Assembly (NCBI GenBank): GCA_902512065.1
Contig: CABXHU010000005.1
Location: 1-64,000 of the forward strand
DNA length: 64,000 bases
Direction: 5' to 3'
Source of the DNA: an uncultured Bacteroidota bacterium
Lineage (GTDB): Bacteria > Bacteroidota > Bacteroidia > Flavobacteriales > Flavobacteriaceae
The notes under the pieces were generated by a model. The model was not told the DNA's origin. It was given only the letters and a program-made list of their open reading frames with translations, and did no database searches. Positions 37,365-39,336 of the stretch are shown here, piece by piece (the stretch's first letter is position 1; each line of letters starts with the position of its first letter). The position numbers were made by a program, and so were the translations under genes.

Positions 37365-38252
37365 ATGGGGTACCACCACGATCATCACCATCATCATTCT
37401 TCAAATAACATAAAAGTTGCATTTTTTTTAAATTTTGGTTTTACTATTTTAGAAATAATTGGGGGTCTTTATGTAAATAGTATTGCAATTATTTCTGATG
37501 CTATCCATGATCTAGGGGATACAATAGCTCTTGGCACTTCATGGTATCTAGAAGAGAAATCTCACAAGAAATCTAATAAGAAGTTTTCTTTTGGGTATAA
37601 AAGATTTTCATTGTTAGGAGCCCTTATCAATAGCGTTATACTAATAATAGGCTCTTTATATGTGATAACTGAAGCTGTAGGAAGAATTCTGGAACCTGAG
37701 CACACTGATGCAAAAGGAATGTTCTTTTTTGCAATAATTGGTGTGCTAGTCAATGGGTATGCTGCATGGAAATTAAGCAGTGGTAAAACCATGAATGAAA
37801 AAGTAGCATCTTGGCATTTAGTTGAGGATGTATTAGGATGGGTTGCTGTTTTAGTTGTGGCAATAATTTTAAATTTTAAAGACATCCATTACTTAGATCC
37901 AGCATTATCTCTTTTAATAACAATTTATATTTTATGGAATGTATTCATTAGACTTAAACAGACCCTTTTTATTTTTTTACAAGGTGTCCCAGAAGATATT
38001 GATATAAATGAAATAGAATTAAAAATTTTAAAAATAGACTTTGTAGAATCAATTCACCATATGCACGTCTGGTCCTTAGAAGGAGAACACAACGTTTTTA
38101 CTGCTCATATTAAGATAAATGATAACTCAAATTTAAATAATTTTAAAGCTGTAAAATATGACGTAAAAGAAATTTTAAAGCAATATAAATTTGAACACTA
38201 TACAGTTGAAGTTGAGTTTAACGATGAAAAATGTGATTTAAGCGATGAATAA
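37365..38252 (+). CDS. Cation diffusion facilitator (CzcD/ZitB-like) with His-rich N-terminus
   Basis: MGYHHDHHHHHSSNN; SDAIHDLGDTIALG; C-term HHMHVWSLEGEHNVFTAHI. Confidence 0.93.
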   Translation: MGYHHDHHHHHSSNNIKVAFFLNFGFTILEIIGGLYVNSIAIISDAIHDLGDTIALGTSWYLEEKSHKKSNKKFSFGYKRFSLLGALINSVILIIGSLYVITEAVGRILEPEHTDAKGMFFFAIIGVLVNGYAAWKLSSGKTMNEKVASWHLVEDVLGWVAVLVVAIILNFKDIHYLDPALSLLITIYILWNVFIRLKQTLFIFLQGVPEDIDINEIELKILKIDFVESIHHMHVWSLEGEHNVFTAHIKINDNSNLNNFKAVKYDVKEILKQYKFEHYTVEVEFNDEKCDLSDE

Positions 38253-39192
38253 TTTTATTGAAATTTTATTGAAATACAAATTAACAGCTTTAATTCTTAT
38301 ATCTATTAATTTTTCTTGTGTTGAACATAAGCCATCTTATAATGAAAATTTTTTAACGGTTTTAGGAATAGCTCAGGATGCAGGATATCCCCATATTGGG
38401 TGTAATAAAGATTGTTGTAATAAAAACATTGGAGATAATAAATACTATGTAACAAGTATTGGACTTACAGATATTGAAAATGACAAAAATTATTTATTTG
38501 AAGCTACACCTGATATAGGTGAACAAATTAAATATTTAAAAGTTAGTAGAGAAAATAATAAATTGATTGATGGAATATTTTTAACTCATGCTCACATTGG
38601 TCATTATAGCGGATTAATGTATTTAGGAAGAGAGGCATTAGGTGCTAAAAATGTTCCAATATATACTATGCCAAGAATGAAATATTTTTTACAACAAAAT
38701 GGACCTTGGAGTCAACTAGTTTCACTAGAAAATATAAAGTTAGAAGAAATAAATCATAACCAAAACATTAGACTATCTAGTGATTTAAAAGTAATTCCTT
38801 TTAATGTTCCTCATCGTGATGAATTTTCTGAAACTGTTGGTTATAAAATAATAGGAAAGAATAAATCTGCACTCTTTATTCCAGATATTGATAAATGGGA
38901 ATTATGGAATAAAAGTATTGTTGATGAAGTTAAATCTGTTGATTATGCCTTTTTGGATGCCACTTTTTTTAGTGGAGAAGAAATCAACAGATCTATGTCT
39001 GAAATTCCTCATCCTTTTATTTCAGAAACAATAAATCTTTTCAAAGATGAATTATTAGAAATAAAAAATAAAATTTATTTTATTCATTTTAATCATACAA
39101 ACCCAGTACTAAATAATAAATTACATCTTAAGGATAGTATATTAAAATTAGGTTTTAATTTTGCTAAGTTTGGAAATAAGTATGAGTTATAA
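38245..39192 (+). CDS. MBL-fold metallohydrolase, PqqB-like, predicted lipoprotein
   Basis: Lipobox INFSC; VLGIAQDAGYPHIGCNKDCC; LTHAHIGHYSG; NVPHRDEFSETVGYKI. Confidence 0.8.
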   Translation: MNNFIEILLKYKLTALILISINFSCVEHKPSYNENFLTVLGIAQDAGYPHIGCNKDCCNKNIGDNKYYVTSIGLTDIENDKNYLFEATPDIGEQIKYLKVSRENNKLIDGIFLTHAHIGHYSGLMYLGREALGAKNVPIYTMPRMKYFLQQNGPWSQLVSLENIKLEEINHNQNIRLSSDLKVIPFNVPHRDEFSETVGYKIIGKNKSALFIPDIDKWELWNKSIVDEVKSVDYAFLDATFFSGEEINRSMSEIPHPFISETINLFKDELLEIKNKIYFIHFNHTNPVLNNKLHLKDSILKLGFNFAKFGNKYEL

Positions 39193-39234
39193 ATTAAAAT
39201 TAACTAACTTTAATACTATATAAATTATTTTACT

Positions 39235-39336
39235 ATGGAAGCTCAATGCACCTGTTCTTGTGAAGCTTGCACAAACGGTGATTGCAAAAACTGTTCTTGT
39301 GAAGAATGTTCTTGCAATGATTGTTGTTGTAAGTAA
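39235..39336 (+). CDS. 33-aa Cys-rich metallothionein-like peptide (not in ORF track)
   Basis: Manual translation MEAQCTCSCEACTNGDCKNCSCEECSCNDCCCK; 12 Cys of 33, no in-frame disruption, clean ATG and TAA. Confidence 0.7.
   Translation: MEAQCTCSCEACTNGDCKNCSCEECSCNDCCCK

Follow-up and report, generated by a model that had tools for sequence, protein, structure and literature searches.

The window analysed here, a stretch of 64,000 nucleotides from an uncultured member of the Flavobacteriaceae, contains an unannotated reading frame for a cysteine-rich peptide of 33 residues, which raises the question whether so short a sequence is a gene and, if so, what its product does in the cell. The reading frame and the features on its 5' side are as follows.

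37365 to 38252, forward strand: CDF family (ZitB-like) cation efflux gene with a His-rich N-terminus, overlapping the hydrolase gene by 8 nt
38245 to 39192, forward strand: PqqB-like metallo-beta-lactamase-fold protein (the hydrolase) with a lipoprotein-like N-terminus, directly 5' of the peptide gene
39193 to 39234, forward strand: 42-nt gap from hydrolase stop to peptide start, without the SigZ promoter carried by relatives
39235 to 39336, forward strand: gene for the 33-residue cysteine-rich peptide, assigned to a metallothionein-like family (type A) from its reading frame, homologues, alignment and codon distances

The cysteine-rich peptide family

The peptide, which translates as MEAQCTCSCEACTNGDCKNCSCEECSCNDCCCK, carries 12 cysteines (36% of its residues) and neither histidine nor aromatic residues. 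The initial annotation had put it forward as a candidate new metallothionein family, and its reading frame, coordinates, translation, cysteine count and pattern, and lack of histidine and aromatic residues were all re-derived identically; the internal near-duplication that it described is the five-residue CxCxx periodicity of type A. The aligned homologues share a core of 11 cysteines, CxCxCx2Cx4Cx2CxCx2CxCx2CxC, and the twelfth cysteine of the window peptide (C31, in its CCC end) is not common to them. The peptide fits the type A spacing CxCxCx2Cx4Cx2CxCx2CxCx2C in a short reading frame that starts a few residues before the first cysteine, and in composition it combines the marks of a metallothionein, namely small size, cysteine above roughly 20-30%, CxC and CxxC motifs and few or no aromatic residues. 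The ten-cysteine spacing has a single match in the window, even with three mismatches permitted, and none in 100 dinucleotide-preserving shuffles.

Searching 201 genomes from the window's taxonomic family in tblastn style gave peptide matches in 37, mostly spanning residues 3-32, and a profile built from 29 members placed the peptide in 35 of the 201. These matches align gap-free across the cysteine core, and the roughly 60 distinct homologues, of about 33 residues each, hold ten or eleven cysteines at fixed spacing. In a 399-genome sample of the phylum, no matches fell outside the window's own taxonomic family. A scan of GTDB species genomes with the exact cysteine-codon pattern, most raw matches of which were repeats reading as poly-cysteine and were removed by script and by eye, added named members, for example from Gelidibacter, Tenacibaculum, Polaribacter, Winogradskyella, Lutibacter and Oceanihabitans. 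Plasmid and phage collections searched by tblastn gave no peptide matches, for which the low-complexity filter is possibly responsible. Separately, six IMG/VR contigs (L237, L254, L257, L258, L260 and L302) carry short reading frames with the same ten-cysteine spacing, some of them extended. Other genes on these contigs include tail collar genes (L237), a primase and an exonuclease (L254) and a thymidylate synthase (L257), and the short reading frames are possibly virus-borne metallothionein-like peptides.

The comparison of silent and replacement change across homologues that the initial annotation had proposed separates the cysteines sharply from their spacers. Specifically, pN is 0.004 against a pS of 0.83 in the cysteine columns of 64 unique peptide cores, and 0.43 against 0.66 in their non-cysteine columns; these are uncorrected distances whose silent component lies close to saturation, with the contrast still plain. 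The cysteine codons themselves alternate freely between TGT and TGC. Two outcomes had been named that would count against the proposal, a lack of conserved homologues and frame-disrupting substitutions; the profile matches in 35 of 201 genomes speak against the first, and conservation of the reading frame across homologues against the second. With its homologues, gap-free cysteine core and selection on cysteine codons, the unannotated reading frame therefore belongs to a real conserved family, and on this evidence it is a genuine gene, conserved among marine flavobacteria.

None of the 29 type A members matched Pfam at E-values up to 10, PHROGs and the PDB held no relative of the peptide, and the single NCBIfam match, at E 0.044, was judged to be chance; since the HMMER bias filter for composition can mask weak matches of cysteine-rich sequences, the result describes a family without a model and not one without distant kin. 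The open-access literature searched, outside which most subscription journals lie, contained no mention of the peptide family or of its tie to the sigma factor SigZ, and nothing relevant on SigZ with metallothionein or arsenic or on ECF sigma factors with metallothionein. Type A is best read as a new metallothionein-like, presumably metal-binding, peptide family. The initial proposal is supported in part: the family is real, conserved, unannotated and metallothionein-like in composition, with no counterpart in Pfam, NCBIfam, PHROGs or the PDB, and its metal binding is a prediction. The proposal missed the operon with SigZ in which the gene usually stands, which tells more about the peptide.

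SigZ as the usual partner

Across 62 peptide neighbourhoods the dominant partner is an ECF sigma factor gene that starts just 3' of the peptide stop, found at 45 loci (46 in the raw count, from which L048 was left out because its sigma gene is a different ECF, 3.3 kb distant and in the opposite orientation). This partner belongs to the SigZ family (NF007215, TIGR02959), with the reservation that only one of two members tested exceeded the TIGR02959 cut-off and most others in the family fell below it. The scores split cleanly, at 113 bits or more against 91 bits or less, which yields 53 SigZ loci in 48 of the 201 genomes. The peptide occurs in 35 of these genomes, SigZ in 48 and both in 26, and the two genes are adjacent in all 26 (odds ratio 19, Fisher p = 1.7e-12, a value that overstates independence because the genomes are mutually related). 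Other genes conserved near the peptide and named by eye, among them an Lrp-like regulator, an MFS transporter and a methylmalonyl-CoA-mutase-like gene, were judged to be background synteny. The usual context of the peptide gene is first place in a predicted two-gene operon with sigZ, a rule from which the window's genus departs.

The promoter pattern follows the same partnership. The sequence TGCATCTTTT-N13-GTCTA lies upstream of the peptide at 50 loci, with a single fixed spacing, mostly 25-27 nt ahead of the ATG, and a few of these loci show small departures from the sequence. It is present at 45 of 45 loci with SigZ in view, the other five ending before sigZ would appear, and at none of the 11 loci that lack SigZ and are long enough to score, L048 and the window included (Fisher p = 7e-12). 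Among 16 genomes searched, the exact motif occurred in 10, once each and at the peptide, and a reversed control gave no matches. This pattern is characteristic of an ECF sigma factor that regulates its own gene and controls a very small regulon. The SigZ-type promoter of relatives bears only indirectly on induction by metal, which would be expected of a metallothionein. One extra SigZ-type match away from a peptide locus (G133:C1:2224861-2224888, reverse strand) marks a possible further regulon member.

Two genomes record the decay of the pair. The sigZ gene is missing from G089, where the promoter has degenerated to TACATC and CTTCTT and three cysteines have disappeared from the peptide; G135 carries a frameshift in the peptide gene and a stop inside sigZ. 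In both, to judge from these lesions, peptide and sigZ are kept or lost as a pair.

The SigZ proteins paired with type A carry five cysteines that are invariant in 24 of 24 complete proteins, one in the linker between sigma2 and sigma4 and the others as CC and CxxC in the C-terminal tail. SigZ also has other partners, among them a second peptide, type B (MNNCKCTNCQCKNCNCGNCLEKNCSCSKCECSECSCC, 37 residues, 14 cysteines), which stands next to sigZ in eight of eight genomes.

Type B loci: L369, L370, L372 and L374-L378, in genomes G031, G062, G077, G157, G064, G101, G164 and G054

The type B promoter, TGTATCTTTT-N13-GTCTA, is near-identical to that of type A. Both peptides are cysteine-rich, with two clusters flanking a four-residue hinge and sigZ as neighbour, whereas type B has a larger first cluster, and the two types never share a genome in this sample. 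Further cysteine-rich peptides accompany SigZ in G033 and G110, and other SigZ genes without a type A peptide neighbour ArsI/CadI or ArsM. Elsewhere in the class, outside this taxonomic family, SigZ loci hold an aquaporin gene, ArsM, an arsenate reductase of ArsC-like type and cysteine-rich reading frames of 21, 32 and 42 residues. The operon shared with the peptide in most relatives suggests that SigZ is a sensor of metal or arsenic. Besides types A and B, unrelated cysteine-rich mini-reading frames (21-59 residues), such as MENNCCGSTCCCCGTSGSGCC and MNQSCCNENCNCNCGCNCKCSCNCECCKGKCC, were seen beside SigZ at L366, L352, L358, L385, L392 and L393. Five SigZ copies without the tail cysteines (L359, L361, L363, L364 and L371) precede a PhzF-like isomerase, one confirmed by HMM and the rest assigned by eye, and their loss of C-terminal cysteines suggests a changed signal.

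The locus in the window's genus

Directly 3' sigZ and a 5' SigZ promoter, which are usual in type A and not universal, are both absent from the window locus. The promoter is likewise absent at the sister locus L031, and its exact motif occurs nowhere in the window genome. No SigZ-level match was found in the genus, where the ECF sigma factors of sister genomes are only generic (at most 79 bits) and the genomes are 65-84% complete; in the window genome, sigZ is absent from the locus and was not found elsewhere in the assembly of 1.27 Mb in 44 contigs, which is 77% complete.

The peptide is present in all six genomes of the genus, with the PqqB-like hydrolase directly 5' of it in each and also in a Flavobacteriaceae MAG (L144). 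In the window genome, the peptide gene stands two genes 3' of the CDF zinc-efflux gene, and a CDF gene lies 5' of the hydrolase in four of the six. In the remaining two, G201 and G202, the CDF gene is missing at the locus, the hydrolase comes straight after pyrF, and the peptides have an altered second cluster with one cysteine lost. The idea of a conserved zinc operon of CDF gene and peptide was for that reason dropped, and with the two genes not kept together even inside the genus, the link to zinc is weak. The hydrolase that is kept next to the peptide contains a GCNKDCCN cysteine motif in addition to its lipoprotein-like N-terminus.

A simple scan of this stretch found no terminators, and promoter-like matches there were at chance level. 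We infer that the peptide and the hydrolase, together with the CDF exporter in four of six genomes, are probably co-transcribed in this genus. The window lineage would have lost its sensor and gained a new, probably constitutive or read-through, mode of expression, or these events may have taken place in the reverse order.

Proposed function and relation to known systems

In the best-supported model, to which we assign a rough probability of 75%, the peptide is metallothionein-like and originally belonged to a self-contained operon by which SigZ answers metal(loid)s, with binding and sensing both predicted from sequence. A small cytosolic peptide would use two clusters, of four and seven cysteines (eight in the second cluster of the window peptide) with a hinge of four residues between them, to bind thiophilic ions of Zn, Cd, Cu or As. 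SigZ, whose C-terminus is rich in cysteine, would probably sense the ion and, once activated, drive its own promoter to yield the peptide and additional SigZ. In turn, the peptide would clear the ion signal, making the operon autoregulated. In the window's genus, where neither sigZ nor its promoter was detected, an intact peptide would be expressed from behind the hydrolase, which in turn follows the CDF gene in four of six genomes. That the peptide traps metal ions is very probable; as to their identity, the CDF neighbour suggests zinc in the window genome and the other partners of SigZ suggest arsenic. A broader proposal, towards which we lean only slightly, is that SigZ senses metal(loid)s directly and that arsenic enzymes or unrelated peptides of metallothionein type have become almost its sole targets time and again. 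One-promoter, two-gene detoxification devices would have formed in this way, and the window peptide would be one that has been freed from its sensor.

An unlikely alternative, though one of some weight, is that the peptide serves to buffer thiols or redox state, or to trap arsenic or electrophiles, and is not a transition-metal protein. SigZ paralogues do adjoin arsenic genes, and a peptide with 36% cysteine would react with As(III) and oxidants too; however, fixed CxC/CxxC spacing in two clusters is typical of metal-thiolate clusters, and no recurring thioredoxin- or glutaredoxin-like neighbour was noted. It is rather improbable that the peptide is mainly a regulator, that is, a metal- or redox-loaded cofactor or an anti-sigma peptide that controls SigZ instead of buffering metal in bulk. 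Its strict adjacency to sigZ, its decay along with it and the lack of a recurrent anti-sigma gene next to SigZ would agree with such a role, whereas the peptide is intact in the window's genus, where SigZ was not found, its non-cysteine positions vary far more freely, and the pairing of SigZ elsewhere with unrelated cysteine peptides or arsenic enzymes is more in keeping with a regulon than with one dedicated protein partner. A precursor of a RiPP-type bacteriocin might also be short, cysteine-rich and unannotated, but this origin is very hard to credit for a peptide without a leader (1-6 residues precede the first core cysteine in aligned members) and with neither a modification enzyme nor an exporter recurring beside it. 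Finally, a chance reading frame or composition artefact, conceivable for so short a sequence missing from annotation tracks, has a negligible probability and is refuted by the conserved frame, purifying selection on cysteine codons, synteny and promoter.

If the metallothionein-like reading is true, Bacteroidota gain a very short metallothionein family, none having turned up in the databases and open-access papers searched, and SigZ, a poorly understood ECF sigma factor, gains a testable signal and target. It would also mean that metal-response operons can hide among reading frames under annotation cut-offs, and the SigZ promoter motif offers a handle for finding such operons easily.

Among known metallothioneins, SmtA/BmtA (PF02069) resemble type A in being small, cysteine-rich, built on CxC/CxxC and probably metal-sequestering, whereas type A is shorter, differs in cysteine spacing, has no conserved histidine and does not lie beside an ArsR/SmtB-type repressor, being placed under SigZ in most relatives instead. 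The initial annotation had likewise judged the pattern unlike these proteins and unlike MymT, in line with the PF02069 model being unmatched by all 29 members and with the lack of any detected sequence relation to MymT. The latter, a mycobacterial copper metallothionein of the RicR regulon (PMC10141476), is also a small cysteine-rich peptide under the usual annotation length, but type A has a different regulator and was detected, in the samples searched, only in Flavobacteriaceae or close Bacteroidota.

On the regulatory side, the closest layout is that of CorE and CorE2 of Myxococcus xanthus (ECF44/ECF238), which respond to copper and to cadmium/zinc and combine a linker CXC with a cysteine-rich tail (PMC8999054). 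SigZ shares a linker cysteine, metal-handling gene neighbours and the cysteine-rich C-terminal extension (24 of 24 proteins), although it forms a separate family (TIGR02959); the likeness is one of layout, with homology unproven. In place of the CXC of CorE, the SigZ linker has a single cysteine (type A) or CC (type B), and in place of the copper oxidase or ATPase of the CorE systems, SigZ apparently targets arsenic genes or a peptide of metallothionein type.
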